NCBI RefSeq assembly: GCF_023736115.1
Contig: NZ_JAKQZC010000008.1
Location: 1 to 64,000 of the forward strand
DNA length: 64,000 bases
Reading direction: 5' to 3'
Source of the DNA: Salinicola avicenniae
Lineage (GTDB): Bacteria > Pseudomonadota > Gammaproteobacteria > Pseudomonadales > Halomonadaceae
Position numbers and translations under genes: made by a program. Below the pieces are notes generated by a model. The model was given only the letters and a program-made list of their open reading frames with translations, did no database searches and was not told the origin of the DNA. Of the stretch, positions 17,309 through 64,000 are shown one piece after another (within the stretch, counting starts at the first letter, position 1; each line of letters begins with the position of its first letter).

Positions 17309-18502
17309 GTGGCTAAGGAAAAATTTGAACGCTCGAAAATGCACGTCAACGTCGGCACCATCGGTCACGTCGACCACGGTAAGACGACGCTGACGGCTGC
17401 TCTGACTCGCGTTTCCGCGGAAGTTTTCGGCGGTGACTGGCGTGAATTCGACACCATCGACAACGCGCCGGAAGAGCGTGAGCGCGGTATCACCATCGCG
17501 ACCGCTCACGTCGAATACCAGTCCGAAGAGCGCCACTACGCGCACGTCGACTGCCCGGGACACGCTGACTACGTCAAGAACATGATCACCGGTGCTGCCC
17601 AGATGGACGGCGCTATCCTGGTCTGTTCCGCTGCCGACGGCCCGATGCCGCAGACTCGCGAGCACATCCTGCTGTCGCGTCAGGTCGGCGTGCCGTACAT
17701 CGTCGTGTTCCTGAACAAGGCTGACATGGTCGACGACGAAGAGCTGCTCGAGCTGGTCGAGATGGAAGTTCGCGAACTCCTGAACGAGTACGACTTCCCG
17801 GGTGACGACACCCCGATCATCATCGGCTCCGCGCTGATGGCGCTGGAAGGCAAGGACGACAACGGCATGGGTACCACCGCCGTTGCCAACCTGATCAAGG
17901 CCCTGGATGCTTACATTCCGGAGCCGGAGCGTGCTATCGACCAGCCGTTCCTGATGCCGATCGAAGACGTGTTCTCCATCTCCGGTCGCGGTACCGTTGT
18001 GACCGGTCGTGTCGAGCGCGGCATCGTCAAGTCCGGCGAAGAAGTCGAGATCGTCGGTATCCACGACACCACCAAGACGACCGTTACCGGCGTCGAAATG
18101 TTCCGCAAGCTGCTCGATGAAGGTCGTGCTGGCGAGAACATCGGTGCGCTGCTGCGTGGTACCAAGCGTGACGACGTCGAGCGTGGCCAGGTCCTGGCCA
18201 AGCCGGGCAGCATCACGCCGCACACCAAGTTCGAAGCCGAAGTCTACGTGCTGTCCAAAGAAGAAGGTGGTCGTCACACCCCGTTCTTCAAGGGCTACCG
18301 TCCGCAGTTCTACTTCCGTACCACCGACGTTACCGGTACCTGTGAACTGCCGGAAGGTGTCGAAATGGTCATGCCGGGCGACAACGTCCAGATGGTCGTG
18401 ACCCTGATCGCGCCGATCGCCATGGAAGACGGCCTGCGCTTCGCGATTCGCGAAGGCGGTCGTACCGTTGGCGCCGGCGTGGTCGCCAAGATCGTCGAAT
18501 AA
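17309..18502 (+). CDS. tuf: elongation factor Tu
   Basis: Delivers aminoacyl-tRNA to the ribosome as the GTP ternary complex. The 397-residue protein has [11 protein letters not shown] (G1), [12 protein letters not shown] (G3) and NKADM (G4), then beta-barrel domains 2 and 3. Translation starts with GTG at 17309. This is the only tuf in the window; the second copy normally found next to tRNA-Thr is missing. Confidence 0.97.
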
Positions 18503-51361: not shown

Positions 51362-52774
51362 TCATTCGAGATTCTTGAAGGCATCCAGCGCACGCTGGCG
51401 TGCCTGCTTGTGATCGACGATCGGGTCAGGGTAGCCGAGCTGGCGCCGTTGTGTCGCATTCGGCTGATGGCGGGCCTTCGCTTCCAGTTGCTCGAAGGCC
51501 GGCAGCCAGCGGGCGATGAACGCCCCCTCGGGATCGAAGCGCTGCGATTGGGTCGTCGGGTTGAAGATGCGGAAGTAAGGCGCCGCATCCGTACCGGTCG
51601 AGGCTGCCCACTGCCAGCCCCCATTGTTCGAGGCGAAGTCGCCGTCGACGAGGTGCTGCATGAAGAATGCCTCGCCGCGCCGCCAGTCCAGCAGTAGATG
51701 CTTGCTCAGAAACATCGCTGTCACCATGCGCAGGCGATTGTGCATCCAGCCTGTTTCCACCAATTGGCGCATGGCGGCGTCGACCAGCGGAAACCCGGTC
51801 TTGCCCTCGCACCAGGCCTGGAAATCCTTGTCACTGTAACGCCAGGCAAGCTTGTCGGTGGCAAGCTGGAAGGGGCGGTGCCGACAGACGCGGGGAAAGC
51901 CCGCGGCGATGTGCTGATAGAACTCCCGCCACACCAGTTCGTTGACCCAGCTGGCCAGTCCGGCGTCGCCGTCAGCCAGGTGCCCGCCATTGTCGCTCAT
52001 CACCGCTTGCAGGCATTGACGGAAAGAGATCATGCCGGTGGCGAGATAGGCCGAGAGCCCGCTGGTACCGGCCACGGCGGGCAGATCGCGCTGCGACTGG
52101 TAACGCCGCGCCCGCTGGCGCAGGAACTGTGAGAGTCGGTCGGCGGCTGCCTCCTCGCCCGCCGGCCAGCGGTTGTCATCGATCAGCGGAGAGCGGTCCT
52201 TTTTCGGCAGTTCGGGGATGGGATCGCTGTCCGTCGGCGGCCGCTGCTTCGCCGGCGTATCCCGGATGGCCAACTGTTCGGCCGAGATGCGCTGATGCCA
52301 GGCTTTCGAGAATGGTGTGAAAACCTTGTAGAAATCGCCCTGACCCGTGCGCAGATCCCCGGGTTCGAACGCAATCAGGTCGGTGTAGTCGTGAACGGTG
52401 ATCGCCGCCTGCTGAAAGCGGTCACTGACGGCCTCGTCGCGCGCCCGCTCATCGAGAGGGTATTCGCGGTTGAAGTGCAGAGCCTCGACCTCGTGCTCAC
52501 GCGCGATCTCGAGCAGGGCGGCGGGGGCCGCGTCGAAATCCTGGACATCGCGATAGAGCAGGGGAATGCCGAGGTCGTCGAGTGATTCGCGCAGTGCTTG
52601 AACGCCGGCATGCACAAAGGTGAGGCGGGCCTCGCCGTGACCATGAGCCCGCCATTGGCGGCGGCAGGCGAGAAAGACGGCGACGACCGGGCCGCGCTCG
52701 GCGGCAGCGCTGAGCGCGGTGTTGTCCCGGAGTCGCAGATCGTTGCGGAACCAGACCAGCTGGGTCGAAGGCAT
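51362..52774 (-). CDS. phrB: deoxyribodipyrimidine photolyase (CPD class I)
   Basis: Flavoenzyme that uses blue light to split cyclobutane pyrimidine dimers. The 470-residue protein has the N-terminal Rossmann antenna domain (VWFRNDLRLRDNTAL) and the C-terminal FAD-binding helical domain with WVNELVWREFYQHI, TGFPLVDAAMRQL, GWMHNRLRMVTAMFL and DGDFASNNGGWQWAASTGTD. AGGGA precedes the ATG. It lies 100 nt behind the LitR-like regulator, same strand, and is probably its cotranscribed target. Confidence 0.96.
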   Translation of the reverse strand: MPSTQLVWFRNDLRLRDNTALSAAAERGPVVAVFLACRRQWRAHGHGEARLTFVHAGVQALRESLDDLGIPLLYRDVQDFDAAPAALLEIAREHEVEALHFNREYPLDERARDEAVSDRFQQAAITVHDYTDLIAFEPGDLRTGQGDFYKVFTPFSKAWHQRISAEQLAIRDTPAKQRPPTDSDPIPELPKKDRSPLIDDNRWPAGEEAAADRLSQFLRQRARRYQSQRDLPAVAGTSGLSAYLATGMISFRQCLQAVMSDNGGHLADGDAGLASWVNELVWREFYQHIAAGFPRVCRHRPFQLATDKLAWRYSDKDFQAWCEGKTGFPLVDAAMRQLVETGWMHNRLRMVTAMFLSKHLLLDWRRGEAFFMQHLVDGDFASNNGGWQWAASTGTDAAPYFRIFNPTTQSQRFDPEGAFIARWLPAFEQLEAKARHQPNATQRRQLGYPDPIVDHKQARQRALDAFKNLE

Positions 52775-52874: not shown

Positions 52875-53798
52875 TTATGCCTGCGGGTCGGCGTCGATCA
52901 TCGAGCGCAATCGGCTCAAGGCCTGACTCATGTCTTCACCGAGAATGGCGACGGCGGTGTTCTCCACGTCGCTGGCGCGAATGCGTGCGACCGGCCCTGC
53001 CAGGCAGATCGGCACTTCAGTCTGATCGGCCAATCTTGGTAGCTGGCGCCGGATAACATCGCTGCGCTCGGCGTGTCCGCTGGCCAGGAGCAGGGCGCGT
53101 ACACCAAGCCGCTCGATCGCCAGCGGAAATTCGCTCAACGGTAACTCGCCATCGAGCAGTTGCACGCGATAGCCCGACGCGGATACCGCCAGCCCCATCA
53201 GCAAGGCCCAGAAGCCGCTACTGTCGTCGGGCAGGCGCGCGATCATCACTTCATCGGCGTTGCTGAGCTGATTCGCATGGTAGATACGGGTGCCGATGCG
53301 CGTGCGCAAGAAGGTCTCCAGCAGGCGTCGCTGCAGCGATGCCCCGAACTGATCGCCCCAGCGCTCCTCCAGCTGCTGGATCACGGGCTGCCAGAGTTCG
53401 GAGATGCACAGGCTGACTGGATAGAGCGCCAGACTCTGGTTGAACAGCACTTCCAGGCGTCCCAGATCCAGTACATCGACTGCGTGAATCACGTGCTGGC
53501 GCTGGCTGGCCCAGTCGCCCATCTGGGGAGCCGGCGTCTCGACCGCTTCGGGCTGATCGAGCAGTTCACGTACCTGGCTGACGGGGACTCCGCGGTTAAG
53601 CCACTGCAGAATGCGCTCGACGCGCTCGATATCGTCGCGTGCGTAAAGTCTGTGCCCCTTGGGTGTTCGCTGCGGGCGGATCAGGCCGTAGCGGCGTTCC
53701 CAGGCACGTAATGTGACGGAGTTGACACCAGTGAGGCGCGAAACTTCACGAATTGGATAGAGCGGCGCGGCACTGGAATCCAAGGCCTTGAAAGTCAT
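52875..53798 (-). CDS. MerR-family regulator, LitR/CarH type without cobalamin-ligand residues
   Basis: 307-residue predicted repressor. An N-terminal MerR winged helix (IREVSRLTGVNSVTLRAWERRYGL, residues ~16-39) is followed by the helical and Rossmann-like domains of LitR/CarH light sensors. In CarH a W-x9-EH motif and DxHxxG bind adenosylcobalamin. Here W147 is followed by RR at 157-158 and the second site reads LPDDSSGFW (189-197), with no histidine. This corresponds to the class II LitR group, in which a separate short LOV protein supplies light sensing in P. putida (established knowledge as I recall it). Upstream of phrB; a matching operator lies at 54058-54081. Confidence 0.85.
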   Translation of the reverse strand: MTFKALDSSAAPLYPIREVSRLTGVNSVTLRAWERRYGLIRPQRTPKGHRLYARDDIERVERILQWLNRGVPVSQVRELLDQPEAVETPAPQMGDWASQRQHVIHAVDVLDLGRLEVLFNQSLALYPVSLCISELWQPVIQQLEERWGDQFGASLQRRLLETFLRTRIGTRIYHANQLSNADEVMIARLPDDSSGFWALLMGLAVSASGYRVQLLDGELPLSEFPLAIERLGVRALLLASGHAERSDVIRRQLPRLADQTEVPICLAGPVARIRASDVENTAVAILGEDMSQALSRLRSMIDADPQA

Positions 53799-54057
53799 GC
53801 AAATCCTCCTGCGAGGTCTCTGCGTGCGCCGTCTCGTCGAATAGAGGTCTTGTCGGTGTTGCGAATCTTCACCACGAGCTACAGGTCCACTGTGCGTGCC
53901 AACGGGGTCGGGCTGGAAAGTCGGTTGTCAATTCTGCCCTGCCAACGCGCTGGCGTCATCCGGCATCGGTGGTGTCGTGTCGCTCGAGGTCGCAGACTTC
54001 GACGAGCCGTAACGAGCATGAAAGTAATGTCTATACATTCAGGATGGTGTATTGCGT

Positions 54058-54081
54058 TGTACAGATCAAGGGTTTTGTACA
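54058..54081. promoter_or_regulatory. putative LitR operator TGTACA-N12-TGTACA
   Basis: Two perfect TGTACA palindromes (54058-54063 and 54076-54081) are separated by exactly 12 bp. This fits the consensus I recall for P. putida class II LitR regulators, TRTACA-N12-TGTAYA. The right copy overlaps a TACAAT -10-like hexamer (54078-54083), placing the site across a promoter. A half-site TATACA and a TGTATT lie nearby at 54032 and 54048. Confidence 0.65.
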
Positions 54082-54294
54082 ATTTGCATGTAACATCTCT
54101 TGGCTCATACCGGACAGCGATTCGGCTAGGAACGCCATGCGCGGGTGTCTCTGGCACCGCCCTGATGCGGTCTTGGCGTGGTAGATGGCCACGATCGGCG
54201 AGCATCTCGACGACAACAAGGGATGGCCCTTCCTGCATCCAGTCAGCACCATTCCTATCCGGACAGCGCCGCGAGTGGCTGCTACGGTGAAAGT

Positions 54295-54329
54295 TATACA
54301 GTCTTCGTAAAACAGCTTCGTATAACAGG
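54295..54329 (+). repeat. short 13-bp direct repeats before the TIGR01777 gene
   Basis: TATACAGTCTTCG (54295-54307), TAAAACAGCTTCG (54308-54320) and the partial TATAACAGG (54321-54329) follow head to tail, immediately before the ribosome-binding site. Confidence 0.55.
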
Positions 54330-54340
54330 GGGGATCCGTC

Positions 54341-55249
54341 ATGCGCTTGTTGATCACGGGCGGTACAGGCTTTGTCGGTCGTCGTCTGGTCGAGCGGGCG
54401 CTCGCCGCCGGCCACGAGCCGATGGTGGTATCGCGGGATCCCGAGCGGGCCCGCTCGCGGTTGCCCGAAGGCGTCAAGATCGCTGCCAGTGCGACGGCGT
54501 TGGCCGAGGCGCGTCCGCAGGCCATCGTCAACCTCGCCGGAGAGCCGATCGCGGATCGCCGCTGGAGCGAAGCGCAGAAGGCTCGTCTGATCGCATCGCG
54601 CTGTGACACGACCCGCGACGTGGTCGAGCTGTGTCGGCAGTTGGACGCGGTCGGCGCGGCCCCCGGTGTTCTGGTCTCGGGGTCCGCGATGGGCTTTTAC
54701 GGCGATCAGGGTGAGCGCGATGTGACCGAGGAGACGCCGCCTCACGAGGAGTTCGCCCATCAGCTGTGTCAGCGCTGGGAGTCGGAGGCGCAAAAGGCCG
54801 AGGCGTATGGCGTGCGTGTCGCGCGGCTGCGCATCGGCCTGGTGCTGGATGCCGGCGGCGGCACGCTGGCGAAGATGTTGCCGGCTTTTCGACTGGGTCT
54901 GGGGGGGCGGCTGGGCGACGGTCGCCAGTACATGCCCTGGGTGCACCGTGAGGATCTGGTCGGCATGCTACTGTTTCTGCTCGAGCGCGATGACCTTGGT
55001 GGGGCTTTCAACGGATCGGCGCCGAACCCGGTGACCAATGCCGAATTTACCCGCGCGCTGGGCCGGCATCTGCACCGACCGACCCGACTGTGCGTACCGG
55101 CACCCCTGCTCAAGTTCGGTCTCGGCGAGATGTCGAGGCTGCTGCTGACCGGCGCCCGCATGCGCCCTGCACGGCTGCAGGACGCCGGATTCACTTTCCG
55201 CTACGCGACGCTCGACGAGGCGCTGGCAGCCATTTTCGCTCAGCGCTGA
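54341..55249 (+). CDS. TIGR01777-family NAD-dependent epimerase (YfcH-like)
   Basis: Extended short-chain dehydrogenase-like protein of 302 residues with an N-terminal NAD(P)-binding motif TGGTGFVG (residues 6-13), a VSGSAMGFYGD active-site segment and the C-terminal DUF1731-type region (PAPLLKFGLGEMSRLLL). The reaction is not known for this family. In pseudomonads a homologue sits close to photolyase and LitR-type genes, as here. GGGGGG precedes the ATG. The 3' end overlaps rapA by 10 bp, tail to tail. Confidence 0.85.
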   Translation: MRLLITGGTGFVGRRLVERALAAGHEPMVVSRDPERARSRLPEGVKIAASATALAEARPQAIVNLAGEPIADRRWSEAQKARLIASRCDTTRDVVELCRQLDAVGAAPGVLVSGSAMGFYGDQGERDVTEETPPHEEFAHQLCQRWESEAQKAEAYGVRVARLRIGLVLDAGGGTLAKMLPAFRLGLGGRLGDGRQYMPWVHREDLVGMLLFLLERDDLGGAFNGSAPNPVTNAEFTRALGRHLHRPTRLCVPAPLLKFGLGEMSRLLLTGARMRPARLQDAGFTFRYATLDEALAAIFAQR

Positions 55250-58644: not shown

Positions 58645-59172
58645 TTGCTGTGGAATACCTTGATCGTCCTGTTCACCATTGCCGGCATGGAGATCTTCGC
58701 CGCGCTGACGCACCGCCATGTCATGCATGGTTTTGGCTGGGGTTGGCATCGTTCCCATCACCAGCCCCGGCGGCAACGCTTCGAGCGCAACGACCTCTAC
58801 GCCGTGGTCTTCGCCACGATCGCCATCCTGCTGATCGCCTTTGGCACCCGTGGTGCCTGGCCGTTGCAGTGGATCGGTGCGGGCATGACCGCCTACGGGC
58901 TGCTCTATTTCATCGTCCACGATGGTCTGGTGCACAAACGCTGGCCGTTTCGTTACGTGCCGCGGCGCGGCTATCTGCGTCGTCTCTACGTCGCGCATCG
59001 CCTGCATCACGCGGTCAAGGAGCGCGAGCACGGCCTCTCCTTCGGTTTCCTCTATGCGCCGCCGACCGAGCGGCTGAAGGCCCAGCTGCGTCGGCGACAG
59101 GCCGCCGGCGCTAGCGGGGACGCTGCCACAACGCCTCGGGACGAGGACACGGCCGGTGTCGGCGAGCGCTGA
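58645..59172 (+). CDS. crtZ: beta-carotene 3-hydroxylase CrtZ
   Basis: Membrane di-iron hydroxylase converting beta-carotene to zeaxanthin. The 175-residue protein is very close to Pantoea CrtZ: histidine boxes HRHVMH, HRSHH, HDGLVH and HRLHH, and the segment MTAYGLLYFIVHDGLVHKRW. The frame is open to a GTG at 58588, but a strong GGGGAGAG ribosome-binding site (58632-58639) stands 5 nt before TTG 58645, giving MLWNTLIVLF like Pantoea. It converges with crtB and overlaps it by 62 bp. Confidence 0.94.
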   Translation: MLWNTLIVLFTIAGMEIFAALTHRHVMHGFGWGWHRSHHQPRRQRFERNDLYAVVFATIAILLIAFGTRGAWPLQWIGAGMTAYGLLYFIVHDGLVHKRWPFRYVPRRGYLRRLYVAHRLHHAVKEREHGLSFGFLYAPPTERLKAQLRRRQAAGASGDAATTPRDEDTAGVGER

Positions 59173-60046
59173 GTGCCACGCCGCCGCCTGCGAGCAGCAG
59201 GCCGAGCTTTTCCGCCTTGCCGGTGCCTTGGCGCGTTGACCAGGCGTTCTCGCCGGCCACCGCCACCTTGAGGCCGATCCGCCGATAGACGCCACGTGCG
59301 GTGGCAATGGCCCACGCGGATCGCAGCGGCAGAGCGGGTAGGCCCTCGCGGGCGGAGGCGTAATAGGGCTCGGCGACGGCCACCAGGCGCCGTGCCATCT
59401 CGCCTAGCGCCGGTCGGTGTTGAGGTGCCGCGAGCTCGGCGCGTGGTACCGCGAATTCCTCAAGCCACGCCAGCGGCAGGTAGCAGCGATCCATCTGCGC
59501 ATCGTCGACGATGTCGCGAGCGATATTGGTGAGCTGAAAGGCCAGCCCCAGGTCGCAGGCGCGATCGAGCACGGCGTCATCCCGCACACCCATCACGCGC
59601 GCCATCATCAGCCCCACCACGCCGGCGACGTGGTAGCAGTAGCGCAGCGTGTCGGCGAGATGCGGATAACGGTCGCCGCGCACGTCCATGGCGTAGCCGG
59701 TCAGGTGGTCGAGCGCCTGCGATTCGGGAATCTCGTGACGCAGCGCCACCTCCTGAAAGGCGGCGAAGGCGGGATCGGACATCGGCTCTCCGGCGCAGGC
59801 GCGGCGGGTCTCGGCCTCGAGTCGCGCCAGTCGCTGAGCCGGGCCGTCGGCGGCGTCCGCACCGGAACAGCCGGCCGCGAATCCAAGCTGCTGGCCGTCG
59901 ATGACGTCGTCGCAGTGACGACACCAGGCGTAGAGCATCAGCGCGCTGCGCCGGGTGGCGGGATCGAAGAGCCTGGCGGCGGTCGCGAAACTCTTCGAGC
60001 CTGCGGCCATGGTCTGCGTCGCATGATCGAGTAACGGTTCGCTCAT
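59111..60046 (-). CDS. crtB: 15-cis-phytoene synthase CrtB
   Basis: Condenses two geranylgeranyl diphosphates to phytoene. The 311-residue protein has both aspartate-rich motifs, DDVID in LMLYAWCRHCDDVIDG (near residue 45) and DIVDD in FQLTNIARDIVDDAQ, and DTLRYCYHVAGVVGLMMA. The ATG overlaps the crtI stop (ATGA). Last gene of crtXYIB; its 3' end is antisense to crtZ. Confidence 0.97.
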   Translation of the reverse strand: MSEPLLDHATQTMAAGSKSFATAARLFDPATRRSALMLYAWCRHCDDVIDGQQLGFAAGCSGADAADGPAQRLARLEAETRRACAGEPMSDPAFAAFQEVALRHEIPESQALDHLTGYAMDVRGDRYPHLADTLRYCYHVAGVVGLMMARVMGVRDDAVLDRACDLGLAFQLTNIARDIVDDAQMDRCYLPLAWLEEFAVPRAELAAPQHRPALGEMARRLVAVAEPYYASAREGLPALPLRSAWAIATARGVYRRIGLKVAVAGENAWSTRQGTGKAEKLGLLLAGGGVALSARRHRPCPRPEALWQRPR

Positions 60047-61539
60047 GCCGGCCTCTCCCGTTGGCCGATATCCTCGATCATCAGCCCCGCCGTTGCCTGC
60101 GCGGAGCCGATCACGCCCGGGATGCCGGCGCCCGGGTGCGTGCCGGCGCCTACCAGGTAGAGATTGTCGATCCGACTGTCGCGGTTATGCGGTCGAAACC
60201 AGGCGCTTTGGGTCAGAATCGGCTCGAGCGAGAATGCCGAGCCCTGATAGGCATTGAGCTGATCGCGGAAGTCGAACGGCGTGAAGTGCCGGTGTGTCAC
60301 CAGCTGACTGCGCAACCCCGGCAGGTAGTGCTGCTCCAGGTAGTCGAAGATCCGCTCGCGCAGACGCGGCCCTTCGACGTCCCAGTCGAGAGCCGCCGTG
60401 CCCAGGTGCGGCACCGGCGCCAGCACGTAGTAGGCCCCGCTGCCCGCCGGCGCCAGCGTCGGGTCGGTGACGCAGGGGGCGTGGAGATAGAGCGAGAAGT
60501 CCTCGGCGAGCGCTGGCGCGTGGAAAATCTCGTCGATCAGCTCGCGGTAGCGGGGGCCGAAGCAGACCGTGTGATGCGCCAACTGGGTGTGGTTATGGTC
60601 GAGGCCAAAGTAGAGCACGAAGAGCGAGTTGCTCATGCGCTTGCGCTGGAGCCCCGCCGCGACCCGACGGCCGCGCGGATGATGGCCGAGTAGCCGCGCG
60701 TAGGTGTGCACGACATCGGCGTTGGAGGCGACCGCGCGTGCCGGTCGATAGTCGCCGTTGGCCAGGGTCACGCCGCGAATGCGATCGCCGCTCGTTTCGA
60801 GGCGTTCCACCGGGGCGCTCAGTTCGAGCTCGCCGCCGATATCGGTGTAGAGCTTCACCATGGCCTGAATCAGGGCGCCGGTGCCGCCACGCGGAAACCA
60901 GACGCCCCATTCGCGCTCGAGGGCGTGGATCAGGGTATAGATCGACGAGGTCGCGAACGGGTTGCCGCCCACCAGCAGCGAGTGGAAGGAGAACGCCTGA
61001 CGCAGATGCTCGTCCTCGACAAAGCGGGAAACCTGCGCGTAGACGCTGCGCCAGGCCTTGAGCCTCGCCAGCTGCGGCGCGGCGCGGAGCATGTCACGGA
61101 AGGCCAGGAACGGCTTGGCACCGAGCTCGAGATAGCCTGCCTGGAAGACCTCGCGGGAGTAGTCGAGAAAGCGACGGTAGCCCGCGACGTCCGCGGGGTT
61201 GAGGCGCGCGATCTGCTGCTCCAGGTGCGTCTGATCGTTGTCGTAGTCGAAGCGCTCGCCGTTCTCCCAGCAGAGACGATAGAACGGCGTGACCGGCAGC
61301 AGCTCCACGTAGTCTTCCAGCCGTCGTCCGGCCAGCGTGAACAGCGCTTCCAGCGCGCTGGGGTCGGTGATCACCGTGGGGCCGGCATCGAAGGTGAAGC
61401 CGGCGTCTTCGTAGACATAGGCGCGTCCGCCGGGCTTGTCGCGGCTCTCCAGCAGCCGCGTCGGTATGCCGGCGGCCTGCAGGCGGATGGCCAGGGCCAG
61501 ACCGCCGAAACCGGCACCGATAACGATCGTCTCGTTCAT
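60043..61539 (-). CDS. crtI: phytoene desaturase CrtI
   Basis: FAD-dependent desaturase making lycopene from phytoene in four steps. The 498-residue protein has an N-terminal dinucleotide motif GAGFGGLALAIRL (residues 8-20), FDAGPTVITDPSALEAL, and the C-terminal signature NLYLVGAGTHPGAGIPGV. The start at 61539 has AAGGAAGG upstream; the open frame continues to 62229 but only as crtY antisense reading. It overlaps crtY by 4 nt. Confidence 0.97.
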   Translation of the reverse strand: MNETIVIGAGFGGLALAIRLQAAGIPTRLLESRDKPGGRAYVYEDAGFTFDAGPTVITDPSALEALFTLAGRRLEDYVELLPVTPFYRLCWENGERFDYDNDQTHLEQQIARLNPADVAGYRRFLDYSREVFQAGYLELGAKPFLAFRDMLRAAPQLARLKAWRSVYAQVSRFVEDEHLRQAFSFHSLLVGGNPFATSSIYTLIHALEREWGVWFPRGGTGALIQAMVKLYTDIGGELELSAPVERLETSGDRIRGVTLANGDYRPARAVASNADVVHTYARLLGHHPRGRRVAAGLQRKRMSNSLFVLYFGLDHNHTQLAHHTVCFGPRYRELIDEIFHAPALAEDFSLYLHAPCVTDPTLAPAGSGAYYVLAPVPHLGTAALDWDVEGPRLRERIFDYLEQHYLPGLRSQLVTHRHFTPFDFRDQLNAYQGSAFSLEPILTQSAWFRPHNRDSRIDNLYLVGAGTHPGAGIPGVIGSAQATAGLMIEDIGQRERPA

Positions 61540-62702
61540 GTTGCAGCCTTCCTTGGCTTGTATTGCCACAGGGCGCCAAGCGCCTCGTGGAGGGGAACCG
61601 GCGGCTTGCCGACCAGAATCCGGGCCTTGTCGGCGAGGCGCGGATGGCCGGCGTAGAAGCGCGCGATCAGGTCTGCATCGAGCGTGTAGAAGCGCTGCAT
61701 GACGCGCCAGCGCGACTCGGCGTCGCCGGCCAGAAACAGCATGCGATTGAGCATGCGGAAAAAACGCTGCTCGCGCCAGTGACCGGCGGCGAAGCGCTCG
61801 ATCAGCGCTGTCAGCGCCGGCGCCTCGAGCGGCATCGCGGCGGCGATGCGCTCGGCCAGCGCCATGGCCACCGGCAGCGAGTAACCGGTCGTGGCGTGAA
61901 ACAGGCCGGCGCGCAGGCCGCTTGTCGGCTGGGCGGCGAGCGCGGTCCGGAAGGCGGCCGGATCGCCCGCCAAGGTGATCGGCAGGTGGCCACGCTCTTC
62001 GCGCTCCTGCGTCGCCAGCTGCCAGCCCTGGGCAGTGGCGTAGGCGGCGATATTGCGCCGCGCACGCACGACATCCAGCGTCGCGTTGTCGACGTAGTGT
62101 GTGTCTTCGATCAGCAGGCACGTCGGCGACAGCGGCAGGGTGTAGACAAAGCGATAGCCGCCCTGCTGCTCGACGGTGGCATCCATCAGGATCGGCCGCG
62201 TCAGCCCGTGCGGGGCGGCGAGCTGCCACTGCTGGCCAACGAAGGCCTGCCAGCCGACGCGCAGGTGCGGCGAAGGCCGATAGCCGCGACCGTCGATCAC
62301 CGCCGCCGCCTCGAGCCGCTCGCCGCTGTCGAGGATGACGTGGTCGGGGGCGACCTCGGCGACAACAGCGCGCGTGCGCAGCGCCTCGCCAAGCCGATTT
62401 TCCAGCTCGGCGGCGAAGCGTGCCGCGCTGATGCTGAGATAGCCGCCCTCGAGCGTGCGCGTGACGCGGGGAAAGCGGACGTCGTAGCCCGTCCAGCGGT
62501 GGGCCATCAGCGGCGCGATCGACGCATGCTGCGCCGGCGTGAGATCGCTTTGGTGAAACGACCAGGTGTGGTTGCCGCCGGCATGGGGGCCGGCCTCGAG
62601 CAGCAACACGGCCAGCTCGGGACGCTGCTGGCGCAGCTGCCAGGCGATCAGGCCGTTGGCGAGTCCGGCGCCGACCAGTATCAGATCCCAGCGCTTGCGC
62701 AT
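61536..62702 (-). CDS. crtY: lycopene beta-cyclase CrtY
   Basis: Cyclises both ends of lycopene to beta-carotene. The 388-residue protein has the NAD/FAD-binding motif LILVGAGLANGLIA (residues 8-21), AGGNHTWSFHQSDL, VIDGRGYRPSPHLRVGWQAF and the QRFFRMLNRMLFLA block. It starts inside the 3' end of crtX (22-bp overlap). Confidence 0.97.
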   Translation of the reverse strand: MRKRWDLILVGAGLANGLIAWQLRQQRPELAVLLLEAGPHAGGNHTWSFHQSDLTPAQHASIAPLMAHRWTGYDVRFPRVTRTLEGGYLSISAARFAAELENRLGEALRTRAVVAEVAPDHVILDSGERLEAAAVIDGRGYRPSPHLRVGWQAFVGQQWQLAAPHGLTRPILMDATVEQQGGYRFVYTLPLSPTCLLIEDTHYVDNATLDVVRARRNIAAYATAQGWQLATQEREERGHLPITLAGDPAAFRTALAAQPTSGLRAGLFHATTGYSLPVAMALAERIAAAMPLEAPALTALIERFAAGHWREQRFFRMLNRMLFLAGDAESRWRVMQRFYTLDADLIARFYAGHPRLADKARILVGKPPVPLHEALGALWQYKPRKAAT

Positions 62703-63976
62703 CTCGCGACCTCCGGTGTCGATGATGACAGTCGCGTCTCGATCAGCTCGGCCGCACGCTGGCTGCCACCGAACGAAGGCTTCGCGGCGGCCAGGCGTTG
62801 CCGGTAGGTGGGCATCGTCAGCAGGCGCTCGAGCGTCGCCGCCAGACGCTGTCGACCCGCCCGGCGCGAGGCGCGTTCGCCGTAGCCGTGATAGACCACG
62901 CGGGCGGCCACGCCGGGCTGGTCAAAGGCGATTGGCAGTACCAGTGGCGGCGTACCGGCGGCGATGGCATCGAGCACCGTATTCAGGCCGCCGTGGGTGA
63001 TGACGGCCTCCGCATGTGCCAGGGCGGTGCGCTGATCGACGAAGTCGGTGACGCAGCAGCCCTCGCGGGAGGCCAGGCGTGCGGCACGCTTGGCATTCAG
63101 ACCACCACAGTGGGCGATCAACAGGCGGGCGCCGAGTTGCCGACAGGCCCCGGCGAGAGTATCGAACAGGCGGTAGCGATGCCCCTGCAGGGTGCCGAGC
63201 GAGGCGAACACGCGCGGCCGGCCGTCGGCGTCAAGCCAGGCGGCCGGGAGACCCGCTTCTGGCGTACCGTTGTCCGCTTGCGGGCGACGCAGGGCGCCAA
63301 CGGCATGATAGCGCGCGGGGCGGGCGTGACGAGGGAAATCGAGCTCGGCGCCCGCCTGGCTGATCTGCAGCCGTGGCGACAGGCACTCGTGGAGGCTGCG
63401 ACGCGGCGGTAGCCCAAAGCGCTCGGCGTGTCCGGCGATGACTCGGCCCAGGGGGCGCATCAGGTAGTCGTGAATCGACTCGCTGGTGCGGTACAGGCGC
63501 TGGGCCTTCTCGTCCTGCGCATAGCGAAACGGCATGACCGGCAGCGGCAGCCCCGGCTCGCGATTGATCGGCAGCGCGCAGGCCACCGACACATAGGGCA
63601 ACTGCAGTGCTTCCGCGACCAGGCCGCCGGCGGCTTCCATCTGATCGGCGATCACGGCGTCGATATCGAGCCGCTCGAGCAGCGGTGGCAGCGTGCGGCA
63701 GAGTTGATCGGTGGTCGCTGCCATGTCGGCGATCAGCCGGCGGATCGATAGCCCCGATGCCCGGCGTGGACTGCGCACCGGTGCGCTGGGAGCGACGAAG
63801 CTGCCCTGACCGTCGACTGCGACGAAGTCGATATGCGGGTCATGCAGCAGACTGTCGGCACCGGCCTGATGCAGAAAAGTGACGCGATGGCCGCGGGCGA
63901 TCAACGCCTCGGCCAGCGCTTGCAGGGCGGCGAAGTGGCTATAGAGTGCCGGTGCGATCACGGCGTAGTGGCTCAA
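62681..63976 (-). CDS. crtX: zeaxanthin glucosyltransferase CrtX
   Basis: UDP-glucose-dependent GT1 enzyme glucosylating zeaxanthin. The 431-residue protein begins SHYAVIAPALYSHFAALQAL like Pantoea CrtX and carries the C-terminal nucleotide-sugar signature HGGLNTVLDAIAAGTPPLV (residues ~327-345) ending in FDQ. Translation appears to start with TTG at 63976, behind GAGGGAG. First crt gene seen on this strand; crtE (GGPP synthase) and perhaps idi, which precede crtX in Pantoea, would lie beyond the window edge. Confidence 0.94.
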   Translation of the reverse strand: MSHYAVIAPALYSHFAALQALAEALIARGHRVTFLHQAGADSLLHDPHIDFVAVDGQGSFVAPSAPVRSPRRASGLSIRRLIADMAATTDQLCRTLPPLLERLDIDAVIADQMEAAGGLVAEALQLPYVSVACALPINREPGLPLPVMPFRYAQDEKAQRLYRTSESIHDYLMRPLGRVIAGHAERFGLPPRRSLHECLSPRLQISQAGAELDFPRHARPARYHAVGALRRPQADNGTPEAGLPAAWLDADGRPRVFASLGTLQGHRYRLFDTLAGACRQLGARLLIAHCGGLNAKRAARLASREGCCVTDFVDQRTALAHAEAVITHGGLNTVLDAIAAGTPPLVLPIAFDQPGVAARVVYHGYGERASRRAGRQRLAATLERLLTMPTYRQRLAAAKPSFGGSQRAAELIETRLSSSTPEVARCASAGI

Positions 63977-64000
63977 TCTCGCTCCCTCTCGTGAATCAGT

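Follow-up and report, generated by a model that had tools for sequence, protein, structure and literature searches.

The locus between a LitR-like regulator gene and a divergent epimerase-like gene contains a perfect 24-bp repeat, and the question it raises is which genes this repeat controls and in response to which signal. We studied the repeat within a stretch of 64,000 nucleotides of Salinicola avicenniae DNA (hereafter, the window) and in relatives from the same genus and family. The initial annotation predicted a light-inducible unit, with a litR-like gene and phrB on one side of a LitR-type operator and the TIGR01777 gene on the other. Its description of the neighbors, a MerR-family regulator and a photolyase on the minus strand and a divergent TIGR01777 gene on the plus strand, agrees with the genes identified here:

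51362–52774, minus strand: phrB, a deoxyribodipyrimidine photolyase gene that follows litR in the same orientation (NF007955 above cut-off)
52875–53798, minus strand: litR, MerR/CarH-type regulator of 307 aa, class II-like, with the B12 histidines replaced
54341–55249, plus strand: TIGR01777 (yfcH-like) NAD-dependent oxidoreductase, the divergent gene (TIGR01777 above cut-off)

The placement of the regulator ahead of the photolyase also holds beyond the window: litR followed by phrB on one strand is found in 69 of 73 family loci (including L048, in which phrB is a fragment), and phrB was not found in the examined stretch of the other four (L026, L032, L116, and L134).

The operator repeat and its conservation

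54058–54081, no strand assigned: operator TGTACA-N12-TGTACA (half-sites 54058–54063 and 54076–54081)

Both half-sites are present with a gap of exactly 12 bp, and the consensus given for them in the initial annotation, TRTACA-N12-TGTAYA, agrees with section 7 of PMC9758184. The window genome (a 4,027,897-base assembly in 11 contigs) contains the exact consensus at this one place only, against 0.13 occurrences expected per genome from base composition and none for a reversed-pattern control. Summed by hand over 81 family genomes, there were 64 exact places versus 16 for the control. When up to two mismatches were allowed, the window genome had 52 places versus 80 for the control; because of this, degenerate matches are treated as noise and the near-exact site alone as informative. 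The genome scan that had been proposed for defining the regulon returned one exact place, but the regulon could not be defined by degenerate matching, and a genome-wide set built on two-mismatch sites was dropped. Within the window, the sole further match (two mismatches) is at position 17694. Carotenoid genes, the kind of target that class I LitR/CarH proteins control, lie at 59111–64000 (crtB above its NCBIfam cut-off, with neighbors that are crtI-, crtY-, and crtX-like by eye), and no operator match with up to two mismatches was found near them in a search of the whole window.

Conservation was assessed in 73 loci (72 relatives and the window) drawn from the 81 family genomes; a strong LitR (E-value under 1e-30) was required, which left out eight genomes. 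In 41 of the 73, the 350 bp upstream of litR contain the operator at zero or one mismatch (28 exact, 13 with one mismatch), and at the same stringency the reversed pattern was found in 0/73 loci and the operator in 0/72 downstream stretches. The 32 loci without a site inside 350 bp count against the operator reading; with an 800-bp limit, 28 of the first 29 relatives had the operator. Each of the 18 genus genomes searched carries TGTACA-N12-[T/C]GTACA at 263–325 bp from the litR ATG, and four of them, the window included, have the exact operator. When spacings from 0 to 34 were compared, N12 occurred in 40/73 loci, any other spacing in at most four, and 100 shuffles gave at most three. Among 80 named loci, an N12 site (at most one mismatch) is present in the upstream flank of 59, including all 43 of the Pseudomonas group (reversed control: 0); in the other 21, which include the four named Vreelandella, the flank examined contains none, and these loci count against. 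The nearest named relatives by LitR identity are Salinicola salarius (87%) and S. endophyticus (82%), in a comparison from which the window's own records are possibly absent.

The alternative that the repeat is a chance match, or the site of an unrelated factor, could draw on the deficit of two-mismatch sites relative to the reversed control. However, the rarity expected of an exact site and its retention upstream of litR across the family and in every genus genome make this explanation very improbable.

The litR promoter and leader

The following features were placed on the litR-facing strand:

53799–53842, minus strand: genus-conserved 5′ leader block adjoining the litR ribosome-binding site (closely similar in 17/18 genus genomes)
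54041–54046, minus strand: putative −10 hexamer CATCCT of the litR promoter, 17-bp spacer (conserved as CATcCT in a 41-site profile)
54064–54069, minus strand: putative −35 hexamer TTGATC for litR, located within the N12 of the operator (placed by comparison)

Read toward litR, the N12 spacer holds a TTG (T in 34, T in 36, and G in 32 of 41 aligned family sites), complete in 30/41 family sites and in 18/18 genus sites; its absence in full from 11 of the 41 counts against. CATcCT follows 17 bp past the TTG hexamer; its second, third, and sixth bases are A in 38, T in 34, and T in 35 of the 41 sites. TTGACT occupies the same spacer positions in 38 of the 43 named Pseudomonas-group loci. Section 7 of PMC9758184 describes the light-inducible P6650 promoter of P. 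mendocina, footprinted and mapped at its 5′ end, as TTGACT-N16-TATGAT, with TGTACA-N12-TGTACA (Site 1) over the −35. Since the spacer TTG lies in the register of P6650, we infer a promoter directed at litR-phrB, not at the epimerase gene, whose −35 is spanned by the operator. A scan with the sigma-70 consensus found no promoter at litR, and the putative −10, CATCCT, fits that consensus poorly. The arrangement typical of class II operators, TRTACA-N12-TGTAYA overlapping the −35 of the target, is present here with a promoter that is predicted by comparison and missed by the consensus scan. The overlap with a −10-like hexamer noted in the initial annotation stands insofar as TACAAT exists on the plus strand (54078–54083), but its last base is not conserved (position −2 among the 41 aligned sites: T16, A11, G11, C3), and the conserved promoter-like pattern is on the minus strand.

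The predicted litR leader is ~235 nt long. Its conserved block has no counterpart by eye in other family loci, and no Rfam match to the leader was found. By eye, the block is partly complementary to a second one (53995–54016) that is kept in some genus genomes only; a conserved RNA structure was set aside because this second block is missing from several of the 18.

Further candidate targets

A second type of photolyase gene, cryB, is found in 50 of the 81 family genomes, and 30 of these loci were examined. N12 sites with at most one mismatch lie upstream in 26 of the 30 (reversed control: 0), and in a test of spacings from 4 to 20, those other than N12 occurred in at most one locus. In the window genome, 4 bp separate the end of a one-mismatch operator from the cryB ATG, and a ferrochelatase gene lies on the opposite side. 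Around further exact sites, 4 of 27 loci (L303, L305, L306, and L308) have an exact N12 at 43–75 bp upstream of folE, based on the longest reading frame (GTP_cyclohydroI confirmed for L303, L305, and L308); folE was not recognized at any site with up to one mismatch in the window genome. According to PMC9758184, phrB, cryB, and folE are among the light-inducible genes of P. putida.

Other one-mismatch sites of the window genome were not accepted as targets: L006 falls within a gene, no clear target was evident for L007, and L004 and L005 are upstream of DUF6482-like genes (Pfam match just below the cut-off for L005, none for L004). The N12-like sites of L004, L005, and L320, from two genus genomes, precede DUF6482-like genes and have a common right half, TTCTTGTACAA; they possibly represent further regulon members or another motif. 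Exact N12 sites also occur near a small gene that is NIF3/YqfO-like by eye in three genomes (L307, L310, and L097), at 35 bp upstream in L307 and 125 bp in L310; the L307 protein has no Pfam match.

The regulator resembles class II LitR

The class II-like assignment of the regulator was borne out by its CarH-like fold, by replacement of the B12 histidines, and by its grouping with the phrB-linked LitRs of Pseudomonas. The protein matches Pfam MerR_1 and combines a MerR-type HTH with the C-terminal fold of LitR/CarH. Its predicted structure (pLDDT 89) has CarH proteins as the best Foldseek matches (5c8e, E-value 1.3e-15), aligns to full CarH 5c8e with Z 18.2 (273 residues, rmsd 8.0), and aligns to CarH cobalamin domains with Z about 18 (rmsd 2.7–2.9). 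CarH is not alone in scoring at this level: photocobilins (Z 18.8) and the SCHIC domain of AppA (Z 17.2) do so too, and for this reason the fold match alone is not specific. In an alignment to Thermus LitR, the residues GERHEIG and EEH, which we take to contact B12, correspond to DDSSGFW and QRR; the window's LitR therefore lacks these cobalamin residues, and the ligand histidine of class I CarH was not found in the same alignment. It scores 108 bits against the CarH profile NF052513, which has a cut-off of 400.

In a midpoint-rooted tree of 34 rows, from which classes I and III–V are absent and in which PplR and PmlR are not identified by name, the window's LitR groups with those of other Halomonadaceae and then with phrB-linked Pseudomonadaceae LitRs (support 98/98), and the LOV-adjacent LitR paralogues form a separate group (100/100). 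Only one LitR was found in the window genome; the other MerR match is weak (E-value 9e-8). Class II LitR is described in PMC9758184 as not requiring B12; section 31 of PMC11417400, contrary to this, calls class II LitRs adenosyl-B12-dependent.

A short LOV protein as the predicted light sensor

The LOV pattern NCRFLQ had no exact match in the window genome; one mismatch gave three places, among them DCRFLQ in a short PAS protein (L020). This short LOV protein (155 aa in its longest reading) is encoded at G000:C8:421414–421881. In the PDB, it is matched best by ‘sensory box’ proteins, including 3sw1 and 7a6p, known as PpSB1-LOV and PpSB2-LOV. Across the family, a short LOV (E-value under 1e-50) is present in 63/73 genomes with LitR versus 1/8 without (Fisher’s p-value 4e-5, with cut-offs picked after viewing the tables and relatedness not corrected for). 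It is absent from the other 10 genomes with a strong LitR (G004, G005, G023, G029, G043, G044, G056, G067, G074, and G078), of which G043 belongs to the window's genus.

The proposed mechanism starts from what is directly established, i.e., the sequences, their conservation and promoter register, the synteny, the predicted fold, the replaced B12 histidines, and the presence of a LOV gene. From the work on Pseudomonas we infer repression, release by LOV, and induction by light. In the dark, LitR would occupy the half-sites that flank the −35 and exclude RNA polymerase; in blue light, the short LOV photoreceptor would bind LitR and cause its release, and the regulator and the photolyase would then be made. 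The cryB gene would respond through the same type of site, and the divergent TIGR01777 gene is probably a further member of this regulon, by way of a distinct element beside its start codon. We regard it as highly likely that a class II LitR repressor acts on its own litR-phrB promoter with the 24-bp sequence as operator and is released in blue light through the short LOV, that cryB is controlled in the same way, and that TIGR01777 is probably controlled through a separate element.

Light-activated LOV inhibits DNA binding by PmlR2 in P. mendocina (PMC9758184), and by analogy the phrB-linked type of LitR may be inhibited too. It counts against this step that the known LOV partner in that account, PmlR2, is the paralogue and not the phrB-linked type seen here, and that the LOV gene is unlinked to litR. 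LitR could also bind the site and answer to a cue other than light, or to another anti-repressor. The ten LitR genomes without a short LOV, the unlinked position of the LOV gene, and a LitR without B12 histidines would all fit such a signal, whereas the co-occurrence of LitR and LOV across the family speaks for light, as do the targets (photolyase, cryB-type photolyase, and, in relatives, folE), which are all in the P. putida light regulon as given in PMC9758184. No BLUF protein was found in the window genome (PF04940, 0/1; E. coli control positive), and a non-light signal appears unlikely to us.

The TIGR01777 gene has a candidate element of its own

Two features lie directly upstream of the divergent gene:

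54283–54288, plus strand: possible −10 hexamer TACGGT of a TIGR01777 promoter (weak; matched visually to TAxACT-like hexamers in relatives)
54295–54324, plus strand: degenerate 11-bp direct repeat, TATACA(54295)-N5-CGTAAA(54306)-N7-CGTATA(54319), compared with TGTAYAA-N4-TGTATAA of relatives

Within 150 bp upstream of TIGR01777, half-sites 5 bp apart, which form an 11-bp repeat, were found in 24 of 42 family loci, whereas every other spacing occurred in at most two and 100 shuffles gave at most one at the 11-bp spacing. Of the 18 genus genomes, 15 have the repeat. The window is not one of these: its copy is degenerate and partly duplicated, which counts against control of TIGR01777 through it. 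A 13-bp tandem duplication (54298–54328) lies within it, and a similar one was seen in L022. With a looser half-site, the repeat is found in 30/42 loci, although this pattern itself biases the positions that it covers; the A that follows each half-site (26 and 29 of the 30) is free of this bias. A direct reading of the two tandem repeats is preferred over an inverted one because this A is conserved after both half-sites and there is no conserved T before the first. A stricter pattern, TGTAYAAC-N3-TGTAYAAC, was rejected, being found in only 3/81 genomes, in each case on the litR contig at the TIGR01777 gene.

A single bidirectional operator with direct control of both TIGR01777 and litR-phrB would account for the two-sided unit as it was first drawn. 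In Pseudomonas-like genomes (f21), an N12 site takes the place of the 11-bp repeat: 7 of the 8 loci that contain the divergent TIGR01777 gene have it about 120–205 bp upstream of this gene (two of the seven with one mismatch), and the f35 locus L175 has a single N12 between phrB and TIGR01777; TIGR01777 therefore looks like an old member of the regulon. In the window, however, 259 bp separate the site from the TIGR01777 start, a distance that reaches about 560 bp in genus relatives, and a gene intervenes in several of them. The start codons of litR and TIGR01777 are as far as 877 bp apart in these relatives, several of which have a gene between them that is cbiX-like by eye. Furthermore, the plus-strand −10-like hexamer is not conserved, the site lies on the putative −35 that faces litR, and TIGR01777 has its own conserved element by the ATG. 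Direct control of both sides by one operator is thus improbable, and the earlier claim is retained as a statement about a regulon, probably correctly, but not as one about a single operator. The cbiX-like gene, a chelatase by its resemblance, is seen between litR and TIGR01777 in L021, L022, L023, and L026, and is gone from the window.

Judged from the sequence comparisons, TIGR01777 probably belongs to the same regulon through this separate candidate element. A broader and more tentative reading, to which we give slightly less than an even chance, is that the half-site TGTAYAA serves a single class II LitR in two geometries, as an N12 inverted pair at the −35 of litR-phrB and at the cryB start and as an 11-bp direct repeat at TIGR01777, with the phrB-linked LitR acting as the LOV effector and the geometry at TIGR01777 having switched between Pseudomonas (N12) and Halomonadaceae. 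Under this reading the role of LOV effector has to fall to the phrB-linked LitR, since no other LitR was found in the genome.

Comparison with known light switches

The closest known system is the litR-phrB cluster of PplR1/PmlR1 in Pseudomonas (PMC9758184), with which the locus shares the clade of the regulator, a phrB gene that follows in the same orientation, TRTACA-N12-TGTAYA with the −35 inside its spacer, a divergent TIGR01777 gene, a short LOV in the genome, a cryB-type target, and a folE target (the latter in the window's relatives). Four differences were noted: the Pseudomonas group has two N12 sites 40–60 bp apart in 38/43 loci, whereas the window has one; the sites there are mostly about 1 kb from litR, with room for a PME6650-type gene, whereas no gene lies there in the window; the second, LOV-adjacent LitR was not found in the window genome; and TIGR01777 is preceded here by an 11-bp direct repeat and not by N12. 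The overall fold of the regulator and a half-site that fits TnnACA are shared with class I CarH/LitR of Thermus, Bacillus, and Myxococcus (PMC9304148), and the TIGR01777 element, in the relatives that have the repeat, shows the 11-bp direct-repeat spacing published for operators of class I CarH. Unlike class I, the B12 histidines are replaced, two repeats are present where class I operators have three or four, and the targets seen are photolyases and not carotenoid genes. The proposed MerR repressor freed by a separate blue-light receptor also resembles BluR-BluF of E. coli (MerR with BLUF, named in PMC9758184), except that the window genome has no BLUF match and the receptor would be a LOV protein.

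Judged by titles, none of the open-licence papers listed in the searches is an operator study in Halomonadaceae, and neither the Halomonadaceae promoter register nor the second spacing at TIGR01777 was found in the open-licence literature searched. The type of switch has already been worked out in Pseudomonas, and the window's operator is very probably the class II LitR operator in a salt-loving relative. This would extend the light-switch regulon of Pseudomonas to Halomonadaceae, with litR, phrB, cryB, folE (in relatives), and TIGR01777 as likely targets. With one LitR and one short LOV, the genome may offer a less complex setting in which to study how a MerR repressor is freed by a LOV protein, and the two spacings of one half-site would allow a clean test of how the LitR family reads inverted versus direct repeats.
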